Below are positions 1,094 to 19,493 of a DNA stretch of 64,000 nucleotides, in pieces (the first letter of the stretch is position 1; the number at the start of each line of letters is the position of its first letter). The position numbers and the translations under genes were made by a program. The notes beneath the pieces were generated by a model, which had not been told where the DNA came from, made no database searches, and saw only the letters and a list, made by a program, of their open reading frames with translations. This DNA comes from Sorangium aterium (GTDB taxonomy: Bacteria > Myxococcota_A > Polyangia > Polyangiales > Polyangiaceae): the NCBI RefSeq assembly GCF_028368935.1, contig NZ_JAQNDK010000001.1:496001-560000 (forward strand), written 5' to 3'.

Positions 1094-1687
1094 TCACCGC
1101 GCGGACTCGATCATGCTCCGGAACGCCGACCGCGCCGACTGCACGGTCTCGTCGGGGCCGACGATCCTGAAGAACCAGTTTCCGCCATCCGGCGCCCTCA
1201 CCGCCGCGCCGATGAGCCGGTAGTCGTCCTTCACCATCTCCACGGGCGATCGCTTGCGGGCGCCGGACTGCGGCCCGAGCGCGATCTTGTAGGTGCCGGC
1301 CACCTCGACCAGCTCGACCGGCATGCCGCGCACCTCGAACGACGCGCGTTTGGCCTTCGCCCCGACGTCGCCATCGAACTGCGCGAACCACTCGTCGAAG
1401 CGCGCGTCGACGTCTCCTTTGCTCCCCAGACCGAACGAGAGGACCTGCACCTCGGCGTCCTCCTTGTCGTTCGCCGCCCTCGGCACCTTGTAGAGGGCCT
1501 TGCGCGAGCCGTCGCGCGGCACGTCGAGCGCGGCCCAGCTCCCCGGAACGTCCCACGCGAGCCGCGCGGCGGCGGGCGCGCTGGAGACGGCCGGCGGCGG
1601 CTCCGGCTCCGCCGGGGTCCTCGAGCAGGCCGAGACCGCGAGCGCCATCATCGCCGCTCGAGCGAACGACACCCGGCGTCGGAGCAT
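1094..1687 (-). CDS. Putative lipoprotein (197 aa)
   Basis: An exported lipoprotein of unknown function. An Arg-rich N-terminus, a hydrophobic stretch and a lipobox ending SAC put the lipidated Cys at residue 21, followed by a short Pro/Ala linker. The remaining ~150 residues look like one compact alpha/beta domain, with phrases such as WDVPGSW, VRGMPVELVEVAGTYK and NWFFRIVGPDETV. This pattern recalls lipoproteins that evaluate the effect of a small protein or metabolite, but I recognise no family. The gene is divergent from the kinase at 1909 with a 221-bp gap that should hold both promoters. Confidence 0.7.
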   Translation of the reverse strand: MLRRRVSFARAAMMALAVSACSRTPAEPEPPPAVSSAPAAARLAWDVPGSWAALDVPRDGSRKALYKVPRAANDKEDAEVQVLSFGLGSKGDVDARFDEWFAQFDGDVGAKAKRASFEVRGMPVELVEVAGTYKIALGPQSGARKRSPVEMVKDDYRLIGAAVRAPDGGNWFFRIVGPDETVQSARSAFRSMIESAR

Positions 1688-1908
1688 GGAGGCGGTTCTA
1701 CCACCGTGCCCTCCGTCGAGGCGCAGGATTTCGATACCCCGCGCGGCCGGGAACCGCGATCCTCTCCTCGGGCGACGAGCCGCCCGAACGGGGGACGTTG
1801 CGCTCGCAGGAGGGACCCGGCGCGATCCGAGCCCAGGCTCAGGTGTAAGCCCTCGGCCTTGCTCGCACGTAGAAGAGACGCCCCGGCCAGGGAGAGGAGA
1901 CGGCGCGC

Positions 1909-3171
1909 ATGGATCAGATCGGCGAGTACCTCGTTCGACGCCTCGTCGGCGAGGGCGGGATGGGCAAGGTCTACGAGGGCGAGGAGCGCCTGTCGCGCCG
2001 GCGCGTCGCGCTGAAGGTGCTCCGTCCCGAGCTCGCCCGGAGCGAGCAGGGGCGCCGGCTCTTCCTGAACGAGATGCAGATCCTCGCCCACCTCGAGCAC
2101 CCGAACATCGTCCGGAGCCTCGCCAGCATCGAGGCCTCCGGCGAGCTCGTGATGGTGCTCGAGTACCTGGACGGCCAGACGCTGCGGTCCGTCCTTGGCG
2201 CCGCCGGCCGCCTCCCCTGGCCGGAAGCTGTGCGGATCACCGCCAGCGTGGCGAGCGCCCTCGCGGCGGCCCACGGGCAGCAGCCGCCCGTGATCCACCG
2301 CGATCTCAAGCCCGAGAACATCATGGTGCAGCGGGACGGCGGCGTGAAGGTGATGGACTTCGGCATCGCCAAGGTCGTGGAGGCGATGAACCAGACCAAC
2401 ACGCAGAGCGTCGGCACCCTCCAGTACATGAGCCCGGAGCAGATCGACGCGCGATCCATCGATCACCGCTCGGATCTCTACTGCCTCGGGCTCATCCTGT
2501 ACGAGGCGCTCTCCGGCAGCCCGCCGTTCCAGTCGGCCTCGCCGCGGGAGCTGCTCAACCTGCAGTGCACGGCAGAGCCGCCGCCGCTCAGCGACGAGGT
2601 GCGGAGCGGGCTGCCCCGCGGCGTCGAGCAGCTGCTCTTCCAGCTGCTCGAGAAGGCGCCCGAGGATCGGCCGTACCTCGCTCAGGACATCGTGGATCGG
2701 CTGGAGCCGTTCCAGACCGCGGTGAGCGCGCCGCACCGCGCCGGAGATCGCGTCCGCACGAGCGCGCCGCACCACGCCGGCGACCATGACCGCGAGATCG
2801 CCCCGCACCGCGCTGGCGACCGCGACCGCGCGAGCTCGCCGCATCGCACCGGAGATCGCGACCGCGCGAGCTCGACGCATCGCGCCGGCGACCGCGCGAG
2901 CTCGCCGCACCGCGCCGAGGACCACGACCGCGCGAGCTCACCGATCGCCGCGCGCGTCACCGGCGGAGCGGACGCGCCTCGCGCCGATACGATCGCGCTC
3001 GTCGAGCAGATCGACAGGCCGCGCGACGTCCCGATCAGGCTCGCGATCGCGATCATCGTGACGCTGTCGGCGCTCGCGGGCCTCGGGACCTGCGCGCTGC
3101 GCTCGACGAACGGCGCGCCGGAGCCGCCCGCCAGCACCGCGACCCCGGCCTCCCCGGAGGGGGCGCGGTGA
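1909..3171 (+). CDS. Ser/Thr protein kinase with repeat linker and C-terminal membrane helix
   Basis: A Hanks-type Ser/Thr kinase of the PknB class (420 aa). Visible motifs are the glycine loop GEGGMGKVYEG, the lysine in VALKVL, the catalytic HRDLKPEN (Asp132), DFGIA (Asp150) and the activation-segment GTLQYMSPEQ. It should therefore be active. After the domain (to about residue 270) come six tandem 12-residue repeats rich in His, Arg and Asp. A single membrane helix follows near residues 375-398 and a short Pro/Ala tail lies outside. The stop overlaps the next GTG by four bases (GTGA), so translation is probably coupled to the pseudokinase-cytochrome downstream. That pairing suggests the kinase signals with, or phosphorylates, its neighbour; this is inference. 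Confidence 0.92.
   Translation: MDQIGEYLVRRLVGEGGMGKVYEGEERLSRRRVALKVLRPELARSEQGRRLFLNEMQILAHLEHPNIVRSLASIEASGELVMVLEYLDGQTLRSVLGAAGRLPWPEAVRITASVASALAAAHGQQPPVIHRDLKPENIMVQRDGGVKVMDFGIAKVVEAMNQTNTQSVGTLQYMSPEQIDARSIDHRSDLYCLGLILYEALSGSPPFQSASPRELLNLQCTAEPPPLSDEVRSGLPRGVEQLLFQLLEKAPEDRPYLAQDIVDRLEPFQTAVSAPHRAGDRVRTSAPHHAGDHDREIAPHRAGDRDRASSPHRTGDRDRASSTHRAGDRASSPHRAEDHDRASSPIAARVTGGADAPRADTIALVEQIDRPRDVPIRLAIAIIVTLSALAGLGTCALRSTNGAPEPPASTATPASPEGAR
2725..2934 (+). repeat. Six tandem ~36-bp repeats coding for HRAGDRDRA-type units
   Basis: In-frame repeats inside the kinase linker. Units read like SAPHRAGDRVRT, IAPHRAGDRDRA and SSPHRTGDRDRA; five are 12 residues and one is 10. The charged, His-rich, juxtamembrane array is likely disordered and prone to copy-number change. 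Confidence 0.85.
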
Positions 3172-6100
3172 GGCGGGCGTCGCCGGAGCAAGCGGGCTAC
3201 ACGGAAGGCGCGCCCCTCCCGGCCGTGGGCTGCGCCGCGCGATGGCGCTGCGGCGCAGGCGCAGTCGAAGAGCTGTGGCGGCTCGGCGGGGCGGACCAGG
3301 ACGCTCCCGCTCCGGCAGGGCCCGAGCCCCAGGCCGTCGCGGCGCGCCTCCTGTCGCTCGGGAGCGCCGGCGTCGGGGGCTTCATCGACGGCGGCGTCGC
3401 CTCGCCGGCCGAGGGCGAGCGCGCCGCCGCGGCGAGCCCGGACGGCGCGCGCGTCTGGCTCGTGCGGCGGCTCGCGGGCGCGCCCTTCTCGGATTGGATG
3501 CGCGCGCGGCGCGGGCCCGTTCCCTTCCAGGAGGCGCTCGGGCTCGCCATCCAGGTCGCCCGCGCGCTCGCCGCGTGCGAGCGGGCCAGCCTGTTCCCCG
3601 GTCCGCTCTCGCCCGACGCGGTCCTCGTGGACGACGGAGGCCGCGTCACGCTGCCCGCGAGCGCGCTCGTCGCCGCCCTCGTCGGCGCGTCGCCGAGCCG
3701 CGGCGCCGCCACGGCGCCCCGCGGCGAGGGCGCGCGGGTGTCCTCGGAGATCCCGCCGCTCTGGACGCCGCCCGCGCAGGCCGACGGCGCGATCTGGGAC
3801 AGCGCCGCGAACCGGTACGCGCTCGGGCTCGTGCTCTACCGCCTGCTCGCGGGAGAGCACCCGTTCGCTGGCGCTGGCCTGCGGCACGCGCTCGGCGAGG
3901 CCGCTCGCGCGGAGCCGCCGCCGTTCATCGAGGGCGTCGCGACCTCGCTCCCCGCGGGCCTGCAGGGCTACGTGCTGCGGCTGCTCCATCCGGACCCGTC
4001 GGAGCGGCCGCCGCGCGCCGAGGAGATCGCCGATGCGCTGAGCGGGTTTCTCGACGAGCGCCCGCCGGCGCTTCCCGTGCACGCCGGCCGGACCTCCCGC
4101 CGCGCTGGCGCGGCCACCCCGGCGAGGACCGGCCCCGCGCCGCGCGAGCGCGCGCGCCCGGGCGACGCGGGCGACGCGGGCGACCACCACCCGCCGCGCA
4201 GCCCAGCCGGCGCCGCGGCTCGGCTGTGGCGGATCGCCCCCCTCGGCGCCGGCGCGCTGATCGCGTCGGCCGCGCTGGCGCTCTCGCAGGGCGAGCCCGG
4301 TCCAGCGGCGCCGCGCGCGATCGCCGTCGCGCCGGTCGTGCCGCTCGCGCAGGCGCGGACGGCGGCGGAGGACTGCGCGGCGTGCCACGGCCGCCAGGCC
4401 GCGGAGTGGCGCCGCTCGGTGATGGCGCACTCGGTGAAGAGCCCGCTCTTCAACGCGCTCGAGAGCCTCATCGAGGAGCAGGTGGGCCGCACCGTCGACT
4501 GCCCGAACGGCGCGGGCATCCTGCGCAAGGCCGATCCCGCGCGCGCCTGCCGCGACGGGCGGAGCGGCGTCGCGGTGACCGGCTCGGGCGGCGAGCACTG
4601 GTGCGTGAACTGCCACAGCCCGGCGGAGAACCTCGACGCCGCCATGCCCGCGTGGGATGGCCGCGCCGGCGGCGATCCCCGCGCGCGCCTCCCCGTGCGC
4701 GACCTGCTCACCCGGCGTGGCCTGGAGGGGATCTCCTGCAGCTTCTGCCATCAGGTGCACGGCCCGGTCGGCCCGCGCGGGCGCGCCGGGTACCAGGGCA
4801 ACCCGACGTGGACGTCCTTCGTGACGGGCGCCGTCTTCGCTGCGCGCCCCGAGGACGGCCGCGGCCTGTTCGGGATCGCCAACAGCGGCTACGACCTCCG
4901 CCCCGAGGAGCTGCTGCTCCCCTCGGGTCAGGGCGCGGCCCCGCGCGCCGCGCTCCAGCCGACGGGATCGGCGGGCGCCATCGAGCCCGTGGTGCACGGT
5001 CGACCGTCGGCGAGCGCGAGGGCGTACCTGCGCTCCAGCGAGTTCTGCGGGGCGTGCCACGACGTGCGCCTCTTCGGCAGCGACAGCCTCGCCGCGGCGC
5101 GGGGCGAGCACTTCAAGCGGCTGCGCAACGCCTATACCGAGTGGTCGGACTGGGCGAGGTCCGAGGAGCGCGCGGGCCGCCCGGCAGCGACCTGCCAGGA
5201 CTGCCACATGAGCACCTACCCGGGCGTCTGCGAGGCGGCCCCGGCGGCGGGCGCCGCGCAGGCGTCGCCGGCAGATCCCGAGTGCCCGCCCGGCACGCGC
5301 TTCGCCCCGCGAAGGCCTGGCGCGCGCCCGCGGGGCCGGATCGCGGATCACTCGACCGCTCCGGCGGACGTCGCGACCCATTACTTCTCCGGCGTGGATG
5401 TACCGCTGTCGGACGAGTTCCCCGACGCGCTGATCGATGAGCCGTCCCTCGACGTACACGGCATTCCGGCGGGCGCGCGCCGCCGCCGCGATCTCTTGCT
5501 CCGCCACACGTTCCGCTTCGAGCTCGGCGCCGCGCGCCGCGCCGGCGCGGCCGGGGATCGCGTCGAGATCCCGGTCGAGATCGAGAACACCGGCGCCGGG
5601 CACAAGGTGCCGGCCGGCTTCAGCCAGGAGCGCGAGTTCTGGGTTCACCTCGTGGTGAGGGATGGAGAGGGGCGCGTGGTCTACGAGGTCGGCCGGATCG
5701 ACCGCGCCGGCGAGGATCTGAGAGACAAGGTGTTCGCCCGGGTGACCACCGATCCGGACGCGAACAGCCCCTTCGCGCCGGCGGGCACTCCAGGCGGGTT
5801 GTTCGGCGCGGACGTGCGCGACGGGCCTGATGTCCCCCTCTGGACCCCATCCCCACGGCTCGGCGGCACCTCGTTCCGGGGGCTGGGGCTCATCAACTTT
5901 CAGAACGGCTTTCTGCGCTGTGTCCGATGCATCGGCATCGTGGCCGCGGACGGCACCTGCCAGGCCGGGCCCGGCCAGGGGCTGCACCACGCCGATCGGT
6001 TCGCGGACGGCGATTACGACCTGGACACGGGCGCTTGCGGCTCGAACCTGTCGGGGCAGAACGCCTTTCTCGAGACCTATTTTCCGGTCGGCGCGCTGGA

Positions 6101-6398
6101 CGCGAGCCGCGGCGTCGTGAAAGGGCCGGACGCGATCATCGATACGCGCTCCGTGCCCCCCGGCGTGCCGATCCGGTACACCTACGATCTCGGCACCGGC
6201 CAGCGGCGCGGCCCGCTCCGGGCCGAGGCGAGGCTGCTCTTCCGGGCGTTTCCCCCGTTCCTGATCCGCGCCTTCGCCGCGTACGAGCGGGAGCAGGCGC
6301 GGCGCGGCCTGCGGCCGACCGGCCCGCTGGTCACCGATGCGATGCTCGAACGCCTCGAGATCGTCGAGCTCGCGCGGGCCGAGGTCGAGATCCCCTGA
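3168..6398 (+). CDS. Pseudokinase-transmembrane-pentahaem cytochrome c fusion
   Basis: One 1076-residue chain with three parts. Residues ~20-300 have a kinase-like layout (WLVRRLAGAPFSDWM near the N-lobe/C-lobe junction; YALGLVLYRLLAGEHPF and PSERPPRAEEI typical of the C-lobe). The catalytic HRD is replaced by PGPLSPDAVLVDD, DFG is absent, and I see no VAxK lysine, so it should not phosphorylate. A Pro/Arg-rich linker leads to a membrane helix at ~354-374. The rest is a c-type cytochrome with five CxxCH sites (Cys403, 479, 524, 627, 676) and a beta-rich tail containing ENTGAGHKVPAGF, a phrase seen in multihaem cytochromes. Haem attachment requires the C-terminal part to be periplasmic and the kinase-like part cytoplasmic. 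The start is GTG, overlapping the kinase stop. It is probably a redox protein tethered to a kinase-signalling scaffold. Confidence 0.85.
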   Translation: MRRASPEQAGYTEGAPLPAVGCAARWRCGAGAVEELWRLGGADQDAPAPAGPEPQAVAARLLSLGSAGVGGFIDGGVASPAEGERAAAASPDGARVWLVRRLAGAPFSDWMRARRGPVPFQEALGLAIQVARALAACERASLFPGPLSPDAVLVDDGGRVTLPASALVAALVGASPSRGAATAPRGEGARVSSEIPPLWTPPAQADGAIWDSAANRYALGLVLYRLLAGEHPFAGAGLRHALGEAARAEPPPFIEGVATSLPAGLQGYVLRLLHPDPSERPPRAEEIADALSGFLDERPPALPVHAGRTSRRAGAATPARTGPAPRERARPGDAGDAGDHHPPRSPAGAAARLWRIAPLGAGALIASAALALSQGEPGPAAPRAIAVAPVVPLAQARTAAEDCAACHGRQAAEWRRSVMAHSVKSPLFNALESLIEEQVGRTVDCPNGAGILRKADPARACRDGRSGVAVTGSGGEHWCVNCHSPAENLDAAMPAWDGRAGGDPRARLPVRDLLTRRGLEGISCSFCHQVHGPVGPRGRAGYQGNPTWTSFVTGAVFAARPEDGRGLFGIANSGYDLRPEELLLPSGQGAAPRAALQPTGSAGAIEPVVHGRPSASARAYLRSSEFCGACHDVRLFGSDSLAAARGEHFKRLRNAYTEWSDWARSEERAGRPAATCQDCHMSTYPGVCEAAPAAGAAQASPADPECPPGTRFAPRRPGARPRGRIADHSTAPADVATHYFSGVDVPLSDEFPDALIDEPSLDVHGIPAGARRRRDLLLRHTFRFELGAARRAGAAGDRVEIPVEIENTGAGHKVPAGFSQEREFWVHLVVRDGEGRVVYEVGRIDRAGEDLRDKVFARVTTDPDANSPFAPAGTPGGLFGADVRDGPDVPLWTPSPRLGGTSFRGLGLINFQNGFLRCVRCIGIVAADGTCQAGPGQGLHHADRFADGDYDLDTGACGSNLSGQNAFLETYFPVGALDASRGVVKGPDAIIDTRSVPPGVPIRYTYDLGTGQRRGPLRAEARLLFRAFPPFLIRAFAAYEREQARRGLRPTGPLVTDAMLERLEIVELARAEVEIP

Positions 6399-6496
6399 GC
6401 CGAGGTCGCCGCGATGGATCAACGGACGCAACAGACGCAACGGACGCAAACGATGCGACGGACGAGGCCGACACCTCGACGCGCCGGCCGACAGAA

Positions 6497-6527
6497 AGGG
6501 GCAAGCCCCTACCCCGGCCTGCGGGGT
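6497..6527. terminator. Two adjacent short hairpins between convergent genes
   Basis: AGGGGC/GCCCCT (6497-6510, 2-base spacer) is followed at once by ACCCCG/CGGGGT (6511-6527, 5-base loop). They lie in the 195-bp gap between the convergent cytochrome and secreted-protein genes. No T tract is present. Just upstream (6421-6470) is a degenerate CGGACGCAA microrepeat. Confidence 0.4.
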
Positions 6528-6593
6528 AAGGGCTTCGCTGGTCAGGCGCTGACGAGCTCAGCGCGCCGTGGTCATGAAAAGCGTCGCCGCCGA

Positions 6594-7430
6594 TCAGGGA
6601 GGGGGCGGGGGCGGATCGGTCGGGATCGGATCCGGCAGCTTGAACAGCCTGCCGATCCGGTAGGGGCGCGTGGAGGGCGAGTAGTAGCTCGTCTGCGACG
6701 ACGTGACGCTCCACGTGTAGCCGAGCAGGACGCCCGAGAGCGAGTCGGTGTACACACGCACGTAGCCCGTCCCGGCGCCCGGCTCCATGTAGCCACCGGT
6801 GCACGGACCGCTCCACCGGCTGTCCCTGTACTGGCCCTCGGAGCACCCGTGCGACGAGCTGGTCGAGTCCGCGATCGGCACGGCGTACTGCTTCGTCCCC
6901 GAGTAGCGGGGGTTGATCTGCGGGAGGATCTCCTGCGGCGCGCCGGTGATGATCATCGTGTGGCCGGCGTAGGTGATGCCCGTTTCGCCGCGCACCTCGC
7001 CGATGGTGAAGACATCGCCCTTCTGGATGTCGACCGCCCGTTCGACACGGCGGAAGAACGTCTCGAACCCGGAAGGGGTCGCGCCGACCTTCGGGCTCGT
7101 CTTGACGAGCTGGAAATAGTAATCGGACGTCGGGCTGTTCTTGCCCCACATCGCATAGATGTCCTGCTGGGTGTACCCCATCGCCTTCTGCAGCGACAAC
7201 GTGAAGAAGCACGCGGCCTTGGTCGAGCCGGTCCACGCCTTCGACTGGTCAGGGTCGTCCCAGTTCACGAAGCAATCGGGGTCATTGCCCCACTCGTTGA
7301 CGACAGCGTTGTCGATGAACTCGACCGCCCAGTCCTCGGGGCCCTTCGCGCTCGCGGAAGCCGAAGCGAGCGAGATGAAAGACGCGGCAGCCAGGGAAGC
7401 AACAGCCAAACTCGTCGTGCGCCTACTCAT
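6594..7430 (-). CDS. Secreted protein, possibly papain-like (Cys/His) fold
   Basis: A 278-residue exported protein. A Sec signal peptide covers about residues 1-28 (MSRRTTSLAVASLAAAS..., Ala-rich cleavage region). The mature part has a Cys in a predicted helix (KAACFFTLSLQKAMGY) followed by GDVFTIGEVRGETGITYAGHTMIITG. A helix-borne Cys followed by Gly-Asp then His-x-x-x-Ile in strands is how NlpC/P60 or CHAP peptidase folds look, so a peptidase or amidase role is possible. I cannot assign a third catalytic residue, and the C-terminus ends in Pro repeats. A GAGGT ribosome-binding site stands 7-11 bases before the ATG. It is convergent with the cytochrome gene and not obviously part of that system. 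Confidence 0.65.
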   Translation of the reverse strand: MSRRTTSLAVASLAAASFISLASASASAKGPEDWAVEFIDNAVVNEWGNDPDCFVNWDDPDQSKAWTGSTKAACFFTLSLQKAMGYTQQDIYAMWGKNSPTSDYYFQLVKTSPKVGATPSGFETFFRRVERAVDIQKGDVFTIGEVRGETGITYAGHTMIITGAPQEILPQINPRYSGTKQYAVPIADSTSSSHGCSEGQYRDSRWSGPCTGGYMEPGAGTGYVRVYTDSLSGVLLGYTWSVTSSQTSYYSPSTRPYRIGRLFKLPDPIPTDPPPPPP

Positions 7431-7918
7431 ACTTCTACCTCGTTGATTTTGAATGACATTGCATGTGCACTCAAGAACAGATGCTAGTCATTTCATGCCG
7501 AACCCTCAAACGAACCCTGGCGCCGAAGATGCCGAGTCTAGCAGGATGGATATTCACTGTAATCGGCTTGGGTGTCAAGGCATTTTCGGGACGCTCGTCC
7601 TTTTTCTCCACCTTCTCGAACGTGAAGTAAGACCATGTCGTCCCTTAAGACAGCGGATGCGCGACGGTGTGGAGCGACGGTATCCGACGCCATGACACGC
7701 CGGCCTCGTCTGCTCCTCCGCGTCGGCACCCGCGCCCGCGTTCTTCGCGCCGGTTGTGTTCCTTGCGCCGCTTGCACGCCTTGCGCCGCTTGCACGCCTT
7801 GCGCCCCTTGCTGGGTTCCCGTCGACCTCGCTCCGCGGGGCGGCACGGGCCGTGATCGCACGGCGAGGGCGGGTCGGGAGGAGCGGCGGCCTGCGTGCTT
7901 CGACCAGGAGACCTGCTG
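7431..7918. other. 488-bp intergenic region, AT-richer at its left end
   Basis: This separates two divergent genes. The left ~140 bases are clearly AT-richer than the surroundings, as expected for a promoter of the minus-strand secreted-protein gene, but I cannot fix -35 and -10 boxes. The right part contains an 18-bp tandem repeat (annotated separately) and GC-rich sequence running into the AGGAG that precedes the next ATG. No credible gene is visible. Confidence 0.5.
7761..7814. repeat. 18-bp tandem repeat, two perfect copies plus one degenerate
   Basis: CCTTGCGCCGCTTGCACG occurs at 7761-7778 and 7779-7796, with a decayed third copy at 7797-7814. It is non-coding and lies about 110 bp upstream of the cyclic-nucleotide/Fe-S gene. 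Confidence 0.8.
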
Positions 7919-10276
7919 ATGCCCTCATCGGACCACACCCGCGGCGGCGCGCGCGACGCCGGGTCTGACCGCCCCCAGCCGTGGCCGCCGGCGGTGTTCG
8001 ACGCCCCCTTGCTGCGAGGGCTCGACGAGCGCGCCCGGCGCGAGATCTCCGGAGCGGGGCGGCTCCGCTCCCTGTCGCCGGACGAGGTCGCCTATCGCGC
8101 GGGCGACGCCGGCGACGCCTTCTTCGTGGTCGCGTCCGGGCGCGTCGCCCTGCGCGCGACACGCCGCGGAGACGATCGCGATACCGAGGTGCGCACCGCG
8201 GCCGCGGGCGACGTCGTCGGCGAGGAGGCGGTCGTGGGGATGTCGCGCAGGACCACCGCAGTCGCGCTCGCCACCAGCGTGCTCGCCGAGATCCCGGTCC
8301 ACCTGTTCCGCCGCGCCGCCGGCCGCTCCGGCAAGGCCGAGATCGCCGAGAGGCTCGAGCGCGCGCTGCGGAGGAGCGCGACACGCGACCTCCTCAGCAC
8401 CCTCGCCTTCACGCGTGACCTGGACTCGGAGGACGTCGAAATTCTGCTTGACGCAACGAGTCATCGGCGCTTCGAGCGGGGTCAGGCCATCTATCGCACA
8501 GGCGATCCGGCCGCCGAGCTGTGGCTCATCGCCGAGGGGATGGTGCAAATTCAGACCGAGGACGGAGATCGGATTCATGTGCGCGCGTACCTCACCCGAG
8601 GTGATTTCTTTGGTGACGTCGAGCTCGACGAGAACCGCTGCCGGGCGGCGAGCGCCGTGGCCAGCGGCGCCACGGCGCTCCTGTCCGTGCCGTCGAAGAC
8701 GTTCGCCGCGCTCGCGCGGAAGCACCCTGATCTGATCCCCCGACTCCGGCGCATCACCGGCGAGCACCACGAAAGGCAGGAGGCGGTCATCGCCGGCCAT
8801 GCGCGCAATCACACGGCGCACATCTTCAGGGACCTCTATCGCCTTCAGGTCGCGCGGTCGCTCCTGGTCATCGATCTCGAGACGTGCGCCCGCTGCGGAC
8901 ACTGCGCGTGGTCGTGCGCCGACGTGCACGGGGTCTCACGGCTCGTGCGCCGCGGAGACAAGGTGCGCGCGCGGGTGGACGACGCGGAACCGGCCGCGCG
9001 GAAGGAGGCGCCGCGCAGCCTCCTCCTGCCGAACTCGTGCCAGCACTGCGAGAGCCCCGCCTGCATGATCGAGTGTCCCACCGGCGCGATCGGCAAGGAC
9101 ACCGGGGGAGAGGTGTTCATCCGGGACGCGCTCTGCACCGGCTGCGGCGCCTGCGCAAAGGCGTGCCCGTGGGAGAACATCGCGATGGCGCCGCGCCCCG
9201 CGGCCGCGCCGCGCCCGCGAGGCGCAGACTTCACGGAAATCGCCGTGAAGTGCGATCTCTGCCGCGACTACGATGGCCCCGCGTGCGTGAAGGCCTGTCC
9301 CACAGGCTCGATTTTCCGCGTCAACCCTGCGGAGGAGATCGCCGACGTGCGCGACCTGCTCGGCGGGGCACGGCGCGAACAGGAGCGCTCCGCCGCGCCA
9401 CGGAGCGGCGCGGCGGTCGTCGCTGGCAGCGCGCTCGCGGCGGCCGGGCTCGGGGCGGCGGGGCTGTCGGCGCACGCGCGCGGCGGCGCGCGCCCGGGCG
9501 AGGGCGCCGCCTTCTCGGCGGGCGTCGCGGCCGCGGTGGGCATGGCGCTGCTCCTGCTCTACGCGGTCCCCAAGCGCGCCGGGCGATGGGCGTGGATGCG
9601 GCCCAGGCGGCGCGGCGGCGCGGCCGAGGAGGGCGGCGATGCCGCGCTGGTGAAGAGCCGCCTCCGCCCGCAGCTGACCGGGCACCTCGCCATCGGCCTC
9701 GTCACGGCCGGCCTCGCGCTCGCGCACGCGCCGTGGCCCCGGTCCGGCCGCCCGACGCTGGGCGCGGCGCTGCACCTCGTGTTCTGGGCCACTGCGGCGG
9801 CCGGCGCCTTCACGGCGATCGCGTACCGGCTCGCGCCTCGGCGCCTCGCCCGGATCGAGCGCACCGCCGCGCTGCCCGAGGATTTCAGCGCCGCCAGGCG
9901 CGAGCTGCTCGACCGCTTCTACCGCGAAGTGAGCGGGCGCAGCGACCTGGTCAAGAAGATCGTCGAGAAGATCCTCGTGCCCTACCTGCAGAGCCCCCTC
10001 GGCCCGCTCGTGCTGCTCGCCTCGGGGCGCGGCCTGCGCGAGGAGGAGCGCGCGCTGCGCGCCCGCGTCGACGCGGTCCTCGAAGGGCGCGGCGCGGAGC
10101 GGCTCGCCGGCCTGGCGGAGCTCATCCGCCTCGCCGTGGAGCTGCGCGCGCTCCCGGCCCAGCGCGCGCTCCTCGCCGCGCTCCGCGGAGGGCTGCCGGC
10201 GCACATCATCACCTTCGGCGTCGCCGCGGCGCTGCTCGTGCTCCACGCGATCACGGCGCTGAGCGTGCCTCGATGA
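7919..10276 (+). CDS. Dual cyclic-nucleotide-binding, four-cluster Fe-S membrane protein
   Basis: A 785-residue fusion. Two Crp/Fnr-type cyclic-nucleotide domains come first (about residues 20-130 and 165-280; phrases GDAFFVVASGRVAL and AELWLIAEGMVQI). Then comes a ferredoxin-like block with four Cys motifs: CARCGHCAWSC (from Cys323), CQHCESPACMIECP, CTGCGACAKACP and CDLCRDYDGPACVKACP, the pattern of the electron-transfer subunits of membrane oxidoreductases (HycB/NrfC/DmsB type). Several hydrophobic segments follow (~500-545, ~590-640, and a last helix ~760-780). The ATG at 7919 is chosen over an in-frame GTG at 7895 because AGGAG lies 8 bases before it. It probably moves electrons to or from the quinone pool under control of a nucleotide second messenger; partners are likely the haem proteins nearby. 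Substrate unknown. Confidence 0.85.
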   Translation: MPSSDHTRGGARDAGSDRPQPWPPAVFDAPLLRGLDERARREISGAGRLRSLSPDEVAYRAGDAGDAFFVVASGRVALRATRRGDDRDTEVRTAAAGDVVGEEAVVGMSRRTTAVALATSVLAEIPVHLFRRAAGRSGKAEIAERLERALRRSATRDLLSTLAFTRDLDSEDVEILLDATSHRRFERGQAIYRTGDPAAELWLIAEGMVQIQTEDGDRIHVRAYLTRGDFFGDVELDENRCRAASAVASGATALLSVPSKTFAALARKHPDLIPRLRRITGEHHERQEAVIAGHARNHTAHIFRDLYRLQVARSLLVIDLETCARCGHCAWSCADVHGVSRLVRRGDKVRARVDDAEPAARKEAPRSLLLPNSCQHCESPACMIECPTGAIGKDTGGEVFIRDALCTGCGACAKACPWENIAMAPRPAAAPRPRGADFTEIAVKCDLCRDYDGPACVKACPTGSIFRVNPAEEIADVRDLLGGARREQERSAAPRSGAAVVAGSALAAAGLGAAGLSAHARGGARPGEGAAFSAGVAAAVGMALLLLYAVPKRAGRWAWMRPRRRGGAAEEGGDAALVKSRLRPQLTGHLAIGLVTAGLALAHAPWPRSGRPTLGAALHLVFWATAAAGAFTAIAYRLAPRRLARIERTAALPEDFSAARRELLDRFYREVSGRSDLVKKIVEKILVPYLQSPLGPLVLLASGRGLREEERALRARVDAVLEGRGAERLAGLAELIRLAVELRALPAQRALLAALRGGLPAHIITFGVAAALLVLHAITALSVPR

Positions 10277-13658: not shown

Positions 13659-15370
13659 GCCGAAGCACCATGGCAGCCGCGCTCTTGTGCGCGGCAGGGG
13701 TGGTCGCGGCGTGCGGCGGCGATGACGAGGCCGGGCGGCCGAGGCCCCCGGGGCTCTCGAGCGGGGCCGGCACGGCTGGAGGCGGCGACGGCGGCGGGGG
13801 CAGCGGGGGCGCCCCGCCGGGCGACTGCGGGAACGGCGTCGCCGAGCAGGGCGAGGCGTGCGACGGACCCGACCTCGGGGGCACGACCTGCCAGAGCCTC
13901 GGCTTCGATGCCGGCGAGGTCCGGTGCAGCCCCGAGTGCATCCCCGACGCCTCGGGCTGCTCGGGCGTCGAGGTGTGCCAGGACGGGCGGGACAACGACG
14001 GCGACGGCGCCGTCGACTGCGACGATCCGGAGTGCGACGAGGCCTGCGCGGACATGTGCGCCGCGCCCGTGGCGCTCGCGGATCCCGGGGCCGCGACCGG
14101 CAACACCAGCGGCCACGCGGCCGTCCAGAGCAGCTGCTCGCTGGAGAGCCCGGGCGTCGCCTACACGTTCACCGCGACGACAACCGGGTTCCTCGACGTG
14201 GTGCTGACCCCGCACACGGACGCGCCGCTCGTCGCCGAGCTGCGCAGCGCCTGCGACGATCCCGCGACCCGGGTCGAATGCGGCATGCCCAGCATAGGCG
14301 CGGGGATCGACAACCGGCTGACCGTGCCGGTTCGCGAGGGCGATGCGTTCTATGTGATCGTCACGGGAGCCGACGCGGACCAGGCAGGGGCGTTCGAGCT
14401 CGGCGTGCGGAGCCGACAGACCGCCTGCGGGGACGGGATCCAGGATCCGACGGAGCAGTGCGACAACGCCCTCGGTCAACCGGACGACGGCTGCAGCGAT
14501 AGCTGCCAGCTCGAGGCGACCGAGGTGGAGCCCAACGACACCATCGCCACCGCCAACACCTACACCGTTCCGTTCTTCGCCGCGATTCATGCCCCGACCG
14601 ATGACGATGTGGACGTCGATGTCGTGCGCGTCACCGTGCCGAGCGGGCCGACGGACCTGATCGCGGAGACCGCGGCCGTCACGAGCTCCGACTGCCTGAC
14701 CGGCCGGATCGACAGCGTCATCGAGATCCTCGATGAGAGCGGCGGGCTGATCGTGCGGCGCGACCGCGGGGACAACGGCCTTTGCGCCCGCGCCGTCGCG
14801 CCGTCGCTCGCCGCGGGCGATTACTATGTTCGCGTCTCCTCCGTGCTCGGCTCCGGGGCGGCGACGTTCCCGTACCGCCTCGACGTGACGCTCGTCCACG
14901 AGGTGTGCGGGGATGGCACGATCAGCGCCGGAGAGCAGTGCGACGACGGCAACACGGACGCTCTCGACGGGTGCAGCGCCGGCTGCCGCTTCGAGTTCGA
15001 CGAGACGGAGCCCAACGGCACCCCCGCGCAGGCCGACGCGTACGCCGCCTCGTGGCTCGCGGAGATCTCGCCCGCAGGCGACGTCGACGTGATCGCCGTG
15101 AGCGTGCCGGGGCCTCGCTCGACGCTGCACGTGAACGTCGGCGATAACAATACCGAGGCTTGCCTGAGGGGGCAGATCGACAGCTACATCGAGATTCTCG
15201 GCAATGACGGGACCACCGTGCTCGCGTCCGACGACGATTCGGGGGTCGGCTATTGCTCCTACGCCTCGCTCACCGACCTCGCCGCGGGCACTTACTATGT
15301 GAGGCTCCGCGCCGCGCCGCTCGTCCCCGATGCGACCTTCTTCTATCGATTGAATGTCACGCTCCTCTAG
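13655..15370 (+). CDS. Lipoprotein with myxobacterial Cys-rich (DUF4215-type) repeats
   Basis: A 571-residue lipoprotein. The signal peptide ends VVAAC with lipidated Cys near residue 21, followed by a Gly-rich linker. The body has Cys-rich repeats of the type CGDGTISAGEQCDDGN...DGCS..C, at least twice complete and once partial (CGNGVAEQGEACDG), each alternating with beta-sandwich domains containing EVEPNDT/ETEPNGT and GDYYVRV/GTYYVRL. The latter look like bacterial pre-peptidase C-terminal domains. VCQDGRDNDGDGAVDCDDPEC is a further Asp/Cys motif likely to bind calcium. The ATG at 13655 is chosen because it forms an ATGA overlap with the upstream stop. Extracellular adhesion or binding is the likely role; there is no catalytic domain. 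Confidence 0.85.
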   Translation: MSRSTMAAALLCAAGVVAACGGDDEAGRPRPPGLSSGAGTAGGGDGGGGSGGAPPGDCGNGVAEQGEACDGPDLGGTTCQSLGFDAGEVRCSPECIPDASGCSGVEVCQDGRDNDGDGAVDCDDPECDEACADMCAAPVALADPGAATGNTSGHAAVQSSCSLESPGVAYTFTATTTGFLDVVLTPHTDAPLVAELRSACDDPATRVECGMPSIGAGIDNRLTVPVREGDAFYVIVTGADADQAGAFELGVRSRQTACGDGIQDPTEQCDNALGQPDDGCSDSCQLEATEVEPNDTIATANTYTVPFFAAIHAPTDDDVDVDVVRVTVPSGPTDLIAETAAVTSSDCLTGRIDSVIEILDESGGLIVRRDRGDNGLCARAVAPSLAAGDYYVRVSSVLGSGAATFPYRLDVTLVHEVCGDGTISAGEQCDDGNTDALDGCSAGCRFEFDETEPNGTPAQADAYAASWLAEISPAGDVDVIAVSVPGPRSTLHVNVGDNNTEACLRGQIDSYIEILGNDGTTVLASDDDSGVGYCSYASLTDLAAGTYYVRLRAAPLVPDATFFYRLNVTLL

Positions 15371-17876
15371 CCCGACCGGCGGAGGCCGCCGGGCGGCGGC
15401 GCCGCCATCCGGCGGCGCGGACGACGCGGCGCGCCCTCACGATCCCACGAGGACGCTCTACCGCGCCGATCTCTCCGATCCGCGCCAGCGCGCCGCCCAG
15501 CCACGGGAAGTCATGCGGGGGCGCGCCGCGCGCCGCGCCGAGGCGACCTCCGACGTCACCCGCTTCCGGGGCGTGCTGCCGGCCACGCTCGCGGGCGCCG
15601 TCGCGACCGGCGCGGCGGCGCTGCTCTTCCCGCCGCCGGGGGGACATGCGGCGCCGGGGCCGCTCTCGCTGCCCCACGCGCGCGCGCAGCTCGCGTGCGC
15701 GTCCTGCCACGCCGAGCAGGCGCCCTCCGCGCCGCAGGAGGCCGCCGCGGCGCGGGAAGCCGCGGCCTCGCGCGGAGCCGCTGCAGGCGCCCGCGTCGAT
15801 CAAGCCTGCGTGGGGTGCCACGGCGCCCACGGCTCCACCCGCAGGAGCCACAGGCAGCTGCTCGCGAGCGGCGCGCTGAGCTGCGCCACCTGCCACCCCA
15901 TCCACCGCGGCGATCAGGGCGTCGTGTTCGATCCAGCGAGGCCGCCGGTGCGCTTCGCGCCGGGCGCCGAGGTCGAGCTCCCGAGGTCGGCCTTCCGCCC
16001 GGGCCAGCCGGCCACCGTCGCGATCGTCACGGCCGGGAGCTGCGCGCCGTGCCACGACCTCGCCGCGCCGCGGGATCCCATCGCGCGCTGCCTCGTCGCG
16101 GCGCAGGCGCCGCTCGGCGACGCGCGTCCGATCACCTGCTTCGACGAGCACCGCCCTGCCCTCCCCGAGGACGCCGCGACTGGCCGCGCAGGCGGCGACA
16201 CACGCCCCGCCGGCCGCAACGCCGGTCGCGCAGGCGGCGACACCAGCCCCGCCGGCCGCAACGCCGGTCGCGCAGGCGGCGGCACCAGTCCCGCCGGCGT
16301 CTGCAGCGGGCAGCACACCGAGGACCGCGCCCTCGCCTGGGATGCGGCGCGCGACGCCGCCACGGCCTTGCCCCTCGTGAAGGCCGGCGCCACGCCCGGC
16401 GCGCCCGCCCTGCTCTGGATGGGCGCAGGCCTCGCCGCCGCCGCCCTCGCGTTCGCGGGCGCCCGCGGCGGCCACGCGCTGCGCGCGCGCCGCGCGCGGC
16501 GATCGGCGCGCGACGCCGGGGGCGAGGACGCGATGCTCCGCCCCGCGGCGCGCGTGCGCCTGCCCCGGATCGACACGACCACCTGCCTCGGCTGCTACGC
16601 GTGCGTCGACGCGTGCCCGTACGACGTGCTCGCCGTCGAGAAGTACGTCGCGGTCGTGGCCCGCCCCGAGGCGTGCTGCGGCCTCACCCTGTGCGAGCAG
16701 CGCTGCCCCAACGGGTCGCTCACCATCGAGGGCGGCGCGCCGATCGCCGATCGCCCGCGCCTCGGCGACGACCTCGGCAGCCTCGATGTGCCAGGCCTGC
16801 ACCTCGCCGGCGACGTCACCGGGCTCCCGCTCATCAAGAACGCCATCCACCAGGGCGCGCACGCCGCGACGCGCATCGCGGAGGACCTGCGGCAGGCCGG
16901 CCCGCGCGGCGCGAGCGGTCAGGAGCTCGACCTGATCATCGTGGGCGCAGGGCCCGCCGGGATCAGCGCCGCGCTGCGCGCCAAGGAGCTCGGCCTCTCG
17001 TTCGAGGTGATCGAGCAGGGCAGCGTGGCGCAGAGCATCCAGAGCTTCCCGCGCGGCAAGCTGGTCTTCGATCAGCCGCTCGACCTGCCGATGACCGGGA
17101 AGCTGTGGCTGAAGGAGTCGACCAAGGAAGAGCTGCTCTCCCACTGGCTCCGCATCGTGCGCAAGGAGCGGCTCCCGATCCTGCAGGACACCCGCATGGT
17201 GTCGGTCGCCCGCGCGGCCGGCGCCGGCGCGCCCGCCGTCGACGCGACGGCCGGCAGAGGCGCGCCCGCCGAGGCGAAGGCCACGGCCGGCTTCGTCGTC
17301 GTCACCGAGCCGCGCGAGGGCGGACCGCGCACCGAGCGCCACGCGCGGCGCGTGCTGCTCGCCATCGGCCAGCGCGGCTCGCCACGCCGGCTTCCGTTCG
17401 AGCTCTCCGCCGAGGTGGAAGGTCGGGTGTACTACCACCTCGCCGACGCCCGGAGCCTCGCCGGCAGCCGCGTGCTGATCGTCGGCCTCGGCGACGTCGC
17501 CATGGAAGCCGCGATCGCGCTGTCGCGCCAGCCGGCCACCGACGTCACCGTCGTCTACCGTGGCGCCGGGTTCCGCCGCGGGAAGACGCGAAATATCGAG
17601 GAGTTACGAAGGCTTGCAGCGGCGTCCCGCCTCTCGCTCCTGTTCGAGACCGACGTCTCCGCCCTCGCCCTAGATCCGGGCGGCGCGCTCGTGGCGACCC
17701 TCGCTTCGCCCTCGGGGGCCCGGGCGCATCCCTGCGACGCCGTGCTGGTCCTGATCGGGAGCATCCCGCCATGGAGCGCCCTCCGCGCCGCCGGCGTCCG
17801 GCCGACCGCAGAGCCGTCAGATCGTTCCGCGCTCGGCGACGTACAAGGGACCACGCCCGCGGTCCCCGCGCCGTGA
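15354..17876 (+). CDS. Tetrahaem - membrane - 2[4Fe-4S] - FAD/NAD(P) oxidoreductase fusion
   Basis: An 840-residue chain that links a pyridine-nucleotide oxidoreductase to c-type haems. After an N-terminal membrane anchor (~72-92) come four CxxCH sites (Cys115, 152, 177, 230), then a linker with 14-residue repeats and a second helix (~352-375). Next is a ferredoxin motif CLGCYACVDACP (from Cys411) with a second set CCGLTLCEQRCPNG, then a flavoprotein domain with the dinucleotide motif VGAGPAGISAA (~528) and a second, VGLGDVAMEAA, like thioredoxin reductase but with no CxxC redox pair seen. Haem ligation puts the middle segment in the periplasm and both ends in the cytoplasm. It could carry electrons from NAD(P)H across the membrane or the reverse. 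It overlaps the previous gene by 17 bases; an in-frame ATG at 15513 is the alternative start. Confidence 0.85.
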   Translation: MSRSSSPTGGGRRAAAPPSGGADDAARPHDPTRTLYRADLSDPRQRAAQPREVMRGRAARRAEATSDVTRFRGVLPATLAGAVATGAAALLFPPPGGHAAPGPLSLPHARAQLACASCHAEQAPSAPQEAAAAREAAASRGAAAGARVDQACVGCHGAHGSTRRSHRQLLASGALSCATCHPIHRGDQGVVFDPARPPVRFAPGAEVELPRSAFRPGQPATVAIVTAGSCAPCHDLAAPRDPIARCLVAAQAPLGDARPITCFDEHRPALPEDAATGRAGGDTRPAGRNAGRAGGDTSPAGRNAGRAGGGTSPAGVCSGQHTEDRALAWDAARDAATALPLVKAGATPGAPALLWMGAGLAAAALAFAGARGGHALRARRARRSARDAGGEDAMLRPAARVRLPRIDTTTCLGCYACVDACPYDVLAVEKYVAVVARPEACCGLTLCEQRCPNGSLTIEGGAPIADRPRLGDDLGSLDVPGLHLAGDVTGLPLIKNAIHQGAHAATRIAEDLRQAGPRGASGQELDLIIVGAGPAGISAALRAKELGLSFEVIEQGSVAQSIQSFPRGKLVFDQPLDLPMTGKLWLKESTKEELLSHWLRIVRKERLPILQDTRMVSVARAAGAGAPAVDATAGRGAPAEAKATAGFVVVTEPREGGPRTERHARRVLLAIGQRGSPRRLPFELSAEVEGRVYYHLADARSLAGSRVLIVGLGDVAMEAAIALSRQPATDVTVVYRGAGFRRGKTRNIEELRRLAAASRLSLLFETDVSALALDPGGALVATLASPSGARAHPCDAVLVLIGSIPPWSALRAAGVRPTAEPSDRSALGDVQGTTPAVPAP
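16185..16298 (+). repeat. 42-bp coding repeat, two copies and a partial third
   Basis: The unit encodes RAGGDTSPAGRNAG (first copy has RP for SP) at 16185-16226 and 16227-16268, with a diverged partial at 16269-16298. It lengthens the linker between the haem domain and the second membrane helix. Confidence 0.85.
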
Positions 17877-17921: not shown

Positions 17922-19493
17922 ATGAAGCCGACCCACGTCGCCCTGTTCTCCGCCCTCGGCATGATGTTCACGAGCCTCTCCGTCTACTCCCTGGCGCCGT
18001 CCGGGGGCGGGAGCTCCGTCACGGCGGTCCGCGAGGTGATCACCGAGCCGCCCCGCCAGGTCCCCGAGGCGACGGGCGGCGCCGTGGCGGCGGTCGATCC
18101 GAGCCGCTTCACCACCGGATCGCGGCTGATGCTGGAGGGGCGCGTCGGTCACGCCCGCCTGCCTCGCTCGGCGCAGGAGACGTTCCTGATGTTCGAGGTC
18201 CGCGGCGACGGGGCGCCCGCGAGGTCGCAGGCGCAGGCGAACCTCTCGCTGGTCATCGATCGCTCCGGATCGATGAAGGGCACCCGCCTCACGAACGCCG
18301 TGCAGGCGGCGACGACGGCCGTGAGCCGCCTGAACGACGGCGACGTCGTGTCGGTGGTCACCTTCGACACGAGGACCAGCGTGGTCGTGCCGCCCACCAC
18401 CGTCGGGCCGGACACGCGCGGCCGCATCCTCGCGAGCGTGCGCGGCATCTCGCTCGGCGGCGACACGTGCATCTCGTGCGGCATCGAGGAGGGCCTCTCG
18501 CTGCTCGGCCAGACGAGCGGCGGCGTGAGCCGGATGCTCGTCCTCAGCGACGGCGACGCCAACCACGGGGTCCGCGACGTCCCCGGCTTCCGCGCGATGG
18601 CGCAGCGGGCGCGCGATCGCGGCGTCGCCATCACGACCATCGGGGTCGACGTCGATTACAACGAGAAGATCCTGTCGGCGATCGCGCTCGACTCGAACGG
18701 CCGGCACTACTTCGTCGAGAACGACGCCGCGCTCGCGCGCATCTTCGAGGCGGAGGCCGAGCAGCTCACGGCGTCCGTCGCGAGCGGCGCGGAGCTCGCG
18801 ATCGACCTCGCGCCCGGCGTGGAGCTCGACCGGGTCTTCGATCGCTCGTTCCGGCGGGCCGGCGGTCAGGTCATCGTGCCGCTCGGCGCGTTCGCGGCGG
18901 GGGAGGTGAAGACGGTCCTGCTCAAGGTGCGCCTCGGCGGCCTCGCCGGCGACGCGCGCGGCGACTCCCCCGTCGCCGACGTGGGCCTCACCTACCGGGA
19001 CCTCGTCGCCAGGACCGACGCCCGGTGCGTGGGCAGGCTCGGCGTCGCGATCGCGGACCGCGACGCCGACGCGAGCGAGCTCGACGCGCTCGTCGCGGGG
19101 CGCGTGCAGCGCAGCGAGACGGCGGCGGCGCTGAAGCAGGCCAACTTCCTGTTCGAGCAGGGGCGGCTCGACGAGGCGCGCAGCAAGCTCGGCGCGCAGC
19201 AGGAGTCGCTCAAGAAGGCGGCCGACAAGGCGAAGGCCAGCGCCCCGGCGAACCGCGCGAAGGACGTGGCGTCCGATTTCGAGGGCCAGCTCGCCGCGCT
19301 GGAGCGGGCGGGCACGGACTTCGCCACGCCGCCGACGTTCGCCACGCCGCCGCCCGCCGCCGCCGCCGCGGAGCCGGGTGGCTTCGCGCAGGCCCCGGCG
19401 GCAGCGGCGCCGCGGCCCGCCCCGGCGCAGTCCCGCCAGGGCAAGAGCGCCGTCCGCCGCAACGAGGCGGAGGCCTTCGATCTCGCGCGCTGA
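17922..19493 (+). CDS. VWA-domain exported protein (523 aa)
   Basis: A VWA protein with an N-terminal hydrophobic signal or anchor (~1-25). The MIDAS metal site DRSGSM begins at Asp113, and VLSDGDANHG marks the later Asp. After the VWA fold is a beta-rich segment, then a helical region (~390-470; ALKQANFLFEQGRLDEARSKL) resembling one or two TPR helices. The Ala/Pro-rich tail ends QSRQGKSAVRRNEAEAFDLAR. The architecture resembles YfbK/TerF-like or inter-alpha-inhibitor VWA proteins. A GGAGGAG ribosome-binding site precedes the ATG, 45 bp after the haem/FAD gene, so it may be the last gene of that operon. Its last ~105 coding bases are duplicated at 21411. Confidence 0.85.
   Translation: MKPTHVALFSALGMMFTSLSVYSLAPSGGGSSVTAVREVITEPPRQVPEATGGAVAAVDPSRFTTGSRLMLEGRVGHARLPRSAQETFLMFEVRGDGAPARSQAQANLSLVIDRSGSMKGTRLTNAVQAATTAVSRLNDGDVVSVVTFDTRTSVVVPPTTVGPDTRGRILASVRGISLGGDTCISCGIEEGLSLLGQTSGGVSRMLVLSDGDANHGVRDVPGFRAMAQRARDRGVAITTIGVDVDYNEKILSAIALDSNGRHYFVENDAALARIFEAEAEQLTASVASGAELAIDLAPGVELDRVFDRSFRRAGGQVIVPLGAFAAGEVKTVLLKVRLGGLAGDARGDSPVADVGLTYRDLVARTDARCVGRLGVAIADRDADASELDALVAGRVQRSETAAALKQANFLFEQGRLDEARSKLGAQQESLKKAADKAKASAPANRAKDVASDFEGQLAALERAGTDFATPPTFATPPPAAAAAEPGGFAQAPAAAAPRPAPAQSRQGKSAVRRNEAEAFDLAR

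Follow-up and report, generated by a model that had tools for sequence, protein, structure and literature searches.

Bacterial Hanks-type Ser/Thr kinases read cell-wall fragments and small ligands, and receptor pseudokinases such as HER3 work through an active partner. As to multihaem proteins, the pentahaem cytochrome (PHC) family includes ExtKL and Gsu2801 of Geobacter and sPHC and lPHC of cable bacteria, which are structurally similar to c552 of Thermochromatium tepidum; its members carry an immunoglobulin (Ig)-like domain and sometimes fused globins (a truncated haemoglobin in cable bacteria), and some are potentially catalytic through pentacoordinated haems (PMC11976967). The same source assigns no clear role to c552 and leaves the functions of pentahaem cytochromes largely open. 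Periplasmic c-type haem is joined to signalling in GSU0582 and GSU0935, bacterial chemoreceptors described as having c-type haem sensor domains (PMC3460858). Here we analyse a stretch of 64,000 nucleotides (hereafter, the window) from the 13.5 Mb genome of Sorangium aterium, in which one gene encodes a pseudokinase, a single membrane helix and a pentahaem cytochrome. This fusion gene overlaps the gene of an active Ser/Thr kinase and belongs to an operon of electron-transfer proteins, carried by Sorangium and related soil and marine myxobacteria.

The fusion gene and its product

An earlier note on this DNA, made from the sequence alone, had read the gene as one frame with no stop or frameshift and with a single hydrophobic helix, and both points agree with our data. 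The frame is open throughout (Table 1). In an AlphaFold2 model of the complete protein (mean predicted local distance difference test score, pLDDT, 75.7; predicted template modelling score, pTM, 0.64), the N-terminal domain is kinase-like, its N-lobe built of strands and its C-lobe of helices, and is followed by a disordered linker (residues ~303–355), the membrane helix, and the cytochrome. The helix (~357–373) is helical in the model and has a best 17-residue Kyte-Doolittle value of 1.98; it falls below the stricter 19-residue cut of 1.6, and 17-residue values of at least 1.4 occur at the same position in 45 out of 46 family members. Lysine and arginine are more numerous before than after the helix in 33 of these 46, which is consistent with a cytoplasmic pseudokinase and a periplasmic cytochrome. 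The nearest named relative comes from Sorangium cellulosum So0157-2, and its cytochrome half is 88% identical.

A sequencing or assembly error joining two genes, which the earlier note had placed at about 4100–4350, might in principle mimic such a frame, and the high GC content together with the weak single-sequence Pfam scores could be invoked in its favor. However, this join is excluded because the same uninterrupted fusion is present in independent genomes and in metagenome-assembled genomes (MAGs); thus, we regard an error of this kind as having a negligible chance.

Table 1. Positions in the window of the fusion gene, its parts and its operon partners (all features lie on the forward strand; cNMP, cyclic nucleotide monophosphate; FAD, flavin adenine dinucleotide; NAD(P), nicotinamide adenine dinucleotide (phosphate)).
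Feature	Position	Strand	Basis
Active PknB-like Ser/Thr kinase	1909..3171	+	Pfam Pkinase E 4.4e-55, intact catalytic residues
Pseudokinase-pentahaem cytochrome fusion, 1076 aa	3168..6398	+	One open frame, GTG start to stop
Pseudokinase domain, ~residues 1–298, putatively cytoplasmic	3168..4061	+	Profile match, model match, catalytic residues lost
Single membrane helix, ~residues 357–374	4236..4289	+	Predicted model and Kyte-Doolittle
CxxCH haem site 1, residues 403–407	4374..4388	+	Kept in 32/32
CxxCH haem site 2, residues 479–483	4602..4616	+	Kept in 32/32
CxxCH haem site 3, residues 524–528	4737..4751	+	Kept in 32/32
CxxCH haem site 4, residues 627–631	5046..5060	+	Kept in 32/32
CxxCH haem site 5, residues 676–680	5193..5207	+	Kept in 32/32
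C-terminal beta-sandwich region, residues ~779–1076, possibly Ig-like	5502..6395	+	VIA-align Z up to 9.8
Membrane protein, two cNMP-binding and 4Fe-4S ferredoxin domains	7895..10276	+	Pfam, hydrophobic helices
Membrane fusion, tetrahaem/4Fe-4S/FAD-NAD(P) oxidoreductase	15354..17876	+	Helices 74–92 and 352–370; CxxCH at 115, 152, 177, 230
Exported VWA-domain protein, less constant operon member	17922..19493	+	Pfam VWA E 7.9e-21

The pseudokinase domain

On single sequences, Pfam gave scores too low to assign either half of the protein, so that profiles and models were needed for the full picture. The Pkinase model gave 10.9 bits against a threshold of 31.7 on the window protein and reached E 0.01 in 22 out of 37 relatives, and NCBIfam kinase models matched the fusion at E 1.6e-12 and 3.7e-10, both under their own cut-offs. 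Such subthreshold Pfam scores in both halves may be the reason why the fusion has passed unnoticed so far. A profile built on 28 full-length relatives and compared with the PDB retrieved PknB of Staphylococcus aureus (E 1.9e-20), PknB of Mycobacterium tuberculosis (E 7.4e-18), and StkP-type kinases, with an alignment that starts inside the N-lobe and covers the C-lobe up to its end (chain residues 63–281 of 294). Moreover, a Foldseek search with the predicted model placed the kinase domains of PknB and PknA at the top (best PknB E 2.7e-11, template modelling (TM) score 0.60 by target length). According to these data, the N-terminal domain has the two-lobed fold of Hanks-type Ser/Thr kinases; the earlier note had named the absence of a kinase fold as fatal to its reading, and both the profile search and the structure prediction that it proposed speak for the fold.

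The catalytic columns were then compared in an alignment of 46 pseudokinases and 43 neighboring kinases, including those of the window. At the positions of the VAIK lysine, the HRD aspartate, the catalytic asparagine and the DFG aspartate, the window protein has Gly, Pro, Ala and Ala, respectively. None of the 46 pseudokinases harbors the HRD aspartate, two have an aspartate in the DFG-Asp column, and three keep the catalytic asparagine; in the VAIK column, the seven most frequent letters, which account for 41 of the 46 rows (gaps included), do not include lysine. Every catalytic residue checked is retained in all 43 neighboring kinases. The domain is therefore probably inactive as an enzyme, in line with the loss of HRD and DFG noticed earlier.

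Structural residues are kept, namely the APE proline and the RP-motif arginine (46/46 each) and the alpha-F glycine (44/46). Conservation peaks between APE and alpha-G, with mean top-residue frequencies of 0.73 and 0.66; in alpha-G the pseudokinases share Gly237 (46/46), Gly235 (41/46) and Leu238 (40/46), positions at which the active kinases have Ser, Ser and Pro, and Arg239 is common to both groups. The mean top-residue frequency is higher in the active kinases than in the pseudokinases throughout.

The pentahaem cytochrome half

The five CxxCH motifs that the earlier note had counted in the same frame are all there, and each of them is invariant among the relatives aligned (Table 1). A chance origin was rejected: 20,000 shuffles of the protein never yielded more than one motif (mean 0.009). 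Five further histidines (421, 610, 648, 738 and 812), candidate haem ligands, are conserved, three of them invariant and two present in 29 out of 32 sequences, and together with the motifs they would be enough for five bis-His haems.

The model of this half (pLDDT 83.9, pTM 0.87) has one significant Foldseek match, 5ze8, the pentahaem c552 of T. tepidum (E 2.7e-12; root-mean-square deviation (rmsd) 10.0 and TM 0.58 by target in the superposition). VIA-align gave the same structure a Z of 18.0, with 355 of 385 residues superposed at rmsd 3.6; second in rank (Z 9.8) was the beta-sandwich of a glycoside hydrolase family 2 (GH2) enzyme. Residues 390–687 of the half-model match beta-sandwiches of GH2 enzymes and transglutaminases over about 100 residues, with Z up to 9.8, where values of 7–8 are common according to the tool's own warning. 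The matched domains are, we assume, Ig-like. In the profile search of the PDB, 5ze8 was found at a non-significant E of 0.84, and the NCBIfam ExtKL model (NF040886) gave 22.7 bits against a curated cut-off of 250. With five CxxCH motifs in one domain and a predicted c552 fold, the cytochrome half fits the PHC architecture, and its beta-sandwich may correspond to the Ig-like domain of that family.

In the nitrite reductase NrfA the active-site haem is bound through CxxCK, and CxxCH variants exist. All five motifs are CxxCH here, and no NrfA model or chain appears among the Pfam, NCBIfam and Foldseek matches listed, which leaves room for NrfA forms of the CxxCH type.

Four other cysteines (918, 921, 931 and 957; window 5919–6038) are invariant in 32/32 sequences and form a CxxC...C...C set without histidine inside the beta-sandwich region, possibly a metal site or disulphides. 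Further invariant cysteines of this half are 445, 461, 688 and 706.

Distribution and loss of the pseudokinase

The cytochrome half was found in 45 of the 183 genomes of the order to which the window belongs (E ≤1e-10), all of them within its family. In a sample of the phylum, 36 out of 377 genomes matched at E 1e-15: 23 matches are strong (>900 bits) and come from three families of the same class, and 13 are weak and partial (<150 bits). The scan of named genomes, for which 80 candidate stretches were reported, gave 63 loci, i.e., 57 close and six remote cytochromes. The close loci include Sorangium, Polyangium, Minicystis, Byssovorax and Labilithrix MAGs, Plesiocystis, Enhygromyxa, Paraliomyxa, and a Kofleriaceae MAG.

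Eight of the 57 close loci start too near the gene to be judged. Of the remaining 49, 46 carry the fused pseudokinase (45 by filter and L117 added by hand, its long linker falling outside the filter); one of them, L129, has a broken frame. No fused pseudokinase matched in the six remote loci, two of which are cut by the contig start. The domain is absent from L087 (S. cellulosum So ceGT47), L125 and L135. A tree of the cytochromes was rooted on five remote rows with long branches, the contig-cut L113 and L116 being labelled as fused. In it, these three loci are scattered over three positions within the fused group, and three changes are required by branches of good support. Three independent losses are the simplest reading of this tree; the idea that the form without pseudokinase is ancestral found no support, the three loci being nested in three places.

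Stand-alone pentahaem relatives without pseudokinase occur in the remote loci L077, L136, L137, L139 and L140. Their hosts are Myxococcota, a MAG of the Bdellovibrionota and a MAG without classification, and several of these proteins have lipoprotein-like N-termini. In L078 (G122:C268), a second cytochrome copy is broken by several stops and adjoins copies of the kinase gene and of the cNMP-protein gene, the latter with one stop; the same genome has another cytochrome copy, open and cut by the contig end, and the stops may derive from sequencing error.

Evolutionary rate and origin of the pseudokinase

In three full pairs from Sorangium, the ratio of non-synonymous to synonymous substitution rates (dN/dS) was 0.41–0.47 for the pseudokinase and linker, 0.11–0.17 for the kinase, and 0.25–0.32 for the cytochrome; a fourth pair, with So ceGT47, gave 0.21 (kinase) and 0.24 (cytochrome). 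These values suggest that the pseudokinase is under constraint, but a loose one.

This bears on the possibility that the domain is a relic of a once-fused kinase gene, with little or no signalling of its own, and that just the helix matters now, holding the cytochrome at the inner membrane. Such an explanation would account for a pseudokinase that is the fastest evolving of the three parts compared and weakly conserved in its N-lobe, and for the N-termini left by the three losses: a lipoprotein-type signal (LLACG) in place of the domain in L125, and a short hydrophobic stretch in the other two, of which L087 retains the membrane helix and L135 has a weaker hydrophobic stretch. A folded domain of 300 aa is, however, needless for a bare anchor, and the retention of the pseudokinase in 46 out of 49 loci from three families of one class, its dN/dS well below 1 and its invariant C-lobe residues are hard to reconcile with a relic; on balance, we judge it rather improbable.

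As to the origin of the domain, the pseudokinase profile gave the adjacent kinase the top score (120.5 bits, the next being 85.5) and matched at least 145 other places in the genome, with 150 of 598 candidates scored. In a quick tree without the row KL176, pseudokinases and adjacent kinases group together (unstarred support 92.6). In a careful tree the pseudokinases stand beside KL176, the longest row, and away from the adjacent kinases (starred support 95/93, with a long-branch warning). The profile score and the quick tree speak for a duplication of the adjacent kinase gene, the careful tree against it; the pseudokinase perhaps arose in this way.

The adjacent kinase and the conserved operon

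The earlier note's claim of a direct overlap with an active Ser/Thr kinase gene proved correct, the two genes sharing 4 nt. The kinase consists of the kinase domain (residues 9–258), a repeat-rich linker, a membrane helix (378–396) and a short tail. The distance from the kinase stop to the fusion start ranges from -14 to +19 nt in the 40 same-strand loci and is exactly a 4-nt overlap in 25 of them, although the start codon was chosen nearest to the kinase stop, which favors small gaps. The kinase occupies this upstream place in 38 of the 43 loci with room. The tail beyond the membrane helix has a median length of 26 aa in 43 kinases, with one outlier (316 aa) in L133, whose matched kinase is located on the opposite side. 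According to these features, the adjacent kinase appears to be membrane-anchored and without a sensor domain. At 2715–2943 of the window, its linker has a 36-nt unit (12 aa; rich in serine, histidine and charged residues) repeated about 6.5 times in tandem. Another kinase domain lies in a long open frame at about 41060–41884 of the window (G000:C1:537060-537884).

Kinase, pseudokinase-cytochrome, cNMP/4Fe-4S protein and tetrahaem/4Fe-4S/FAD fusion form a conserved operon, of which the earlier note made no mention. In 47 of the 48 loci with room, the cNMP/4Fe-4S gene follows downstream on the strand of the fusion gene, its match starting within about 1.7 kb; the exception is Minicystis (about 12 kb away, opposite strand). 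Among 108 genomes of the family, 43 have both the cytochrome and the cNMP gene, two only the former, two only the latter, and 61 neither (thresholds 1e-10 and 1e-60; Fisher 3.5e-25, relatedness ignored); the four genomes with one gene show partial matches only. The tetrahaem/FAD fusion, in which a helix, four CxxCH motifs, a second helix, a 4Fe-4S domain and the FAD/NAD(P) oxidoreductase follow one another, is downstream in 34 out of 39 loci with room, the five misses being Minicystis and four Sorangium loci that end before its window position. Four CxxCH are found in 29 of its 35 complete frames and five in the other six. The VWA protein is found at some place in the locus in 25 out of 38 loci with room, the Sorangium loci ending before it.

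Judging from these domains, the operon would hold the parts of an electron path from cytoplasmic pyridine nucleotide, FAD and 4Fe-4S to periplasmic tetra- and pentahaem proteins, and kinase, pseudokinase and cNMP-binding domains would be its control elements. In one conceivable direction of signalling, the fusion would be an output and not an input: the active kinase, carrying a signal from elsewhere, would dock on the pseudokinase and gate haem electron flow or catalysis by phosphorylating the linker of the pseudokinase, the FAD fusion or the cNMP/4Fe-4S protein. The operon consists for the most part of an electron-transfer chain and includes two cNMP-binding domains, which suggests a regulation of its own, and the kinase gene stays beside the chain where the pseudokinase was lost, as expected if it acted on other members. 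With a kinase devoid of a sensor domain, though, the input would be unexplained, and we hold this possibility to be an unlikely one.

Several observations concern the operon more generally. In the window, extra genes lie within it: one at 6594–7430 on the opposite strand, a VWA protein at 10566–13658, and a PPC/DUF4215 protein at 13502–15370; they are found in Sorangium, and the core genes are close together in most other genera. A 42-nt repeat (2.7 copies; window 16185–16298) falls between the two membrane helices of the tetrahaem/FAD fusion. In L042 (G149) and L043 (G148), the cNMP/4Fe-4S protein is covered by two neighboring matches with a break near residue 485–502, perhaps a split gene, a frameshift or an insertion. 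A promoter scan of 1500–8000 retrieved no promoter-like site. As to anti-phage defence, the PADLOC matches are to generic kinase and cNMP models.

A possible coupling of redox state and kinase activity

Taken together, we tentatively favor, with somewhat less than even confidence, a reading of the fusion as an adaptor in the inner membrane, by which a Hanks-type kinase is coupled to a transmembrane redox module. The cytoplasmic pseudokinase would dock through its conserved C-lobe on the adjacent membrane-anchored kinase, and the periplasmic pentahaem cytochrome would exchange electrons with the tetrahaem/4Fe-4S/FAD fusion and the cNMP/4Fe-4S protein. Since the active kinase appears to have no sensor domain of its own, the pseudokinase-cytochrome would most likely provide it with a sensor subunit in trans; the contact between pseudokinase and kinase, and hence kinase activity, would respond to the redox state or the assembly of the haem chain. 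The short kinase tail and the conserved operon with electron-transfer proteins make a link between redox state and kinase more plausible. The adaptor is also favored by the close spacing of the kinase and fusion genes, by the structural and alpha-G residues and the dN/dS of the pseudokinase, by the co-occurrence of the cNMP/4Fe-4S gene, and by the c552 fold match. An extension of this scheme, which we consider doubtful, is a transmembrane relay in which the multihaem chain is the sensor of a Hanks kinase, the pseudokinase (perhaps a descendant of the kinase gene) is the coupling element, and periplasmic electron flow is turned into phosphorylation.

A number of data weigh against the adaptor. 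A genome neighborhood is no demonstration of contact, and it is not uniform: among the 43 loci with room upstream, the kinase is divergent in three (Enhygromyxa twice and Plesiocystis) and no kinase match was found in two. In 13 out of the 46 members, the charge count around the helix departs from the positive-inside rule. Within the pseudokinase, the APE glutamate is kept in only 28 of 46 sequences (alanine in the window protein), and the mean top-residue frequency is low in the N-lobe (0.53) and in the former catalytic loop (0.44). Furthermore, the kinase gene stays beside the cytochrome in the three lineages that lost the pseudokinase, and the latter evolves faster than both kinase and cytochrome. 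Lost three times with kinase and cytochrome staying, and faster evolving, the pseudokinase is not indispensable; because these losses and this rate count against an essential role, our confidence in the adaptor is kept no higher.

Comparison with known systems

No kinase-multihaem fusion was found among the literature matches listed (on pseudokinases, myxobacterial and Sorangium kinases, Planctomycetes architectures, and haem or redox sensing), a partial coverage consisting mostly of titles and abstract openings; within this coverage, the earlier note's statement that no such family has been described stands. Both halves have known folds; what appears to be new is their combination, which is conserved in several families of one class. 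It offers a role to test for pentahaem cytochromes, and a bacterial pseudokinase conserved to the same extent. Moreover, Sorangium has very many kinases whose signals are unknown, and this one has a candidate partner and an operon that can be tested gene by gene.

Like the PHC family, the cytochrome half has five c-type haem motifs, the 5ze8 fold, a C-terminal beta-sandwich region, and a fusion to another domain; it differs in its putative tie to the inner membrane, in the pseudokinase on the other side, in a score far below the ExtKL cut-off, and in an operon of its own. GSU0582 and GSU0935 share the joining of periplasmic c-type haem to a signalling protein, but they have one haem, in a PAS fold, and are chemoreceptors in which the haem is not attached to a kinase fold. 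With HER3-type receptors the fusion has in common a dead kinase domain in a membrane protein with an outer domain, near an active kinase of the same fold; the outer part is multihaem here, and the partnership is suggested by genomics alone. Finally, the arrangement of kinase fold, linker, one membrane helix and extracytoplasmic domain is that of the Hanks kinases with sensors of the PknB/StkP type, whereas in this protein the kinase is dead and the outer part is a multihaem cytochrome instead of PASTA or a propeller. A multihaem protein as the outer part of a Hanks kinase would, if true, represent a new class of input or output, in which a physical link might join electron flow to kinase signalling.

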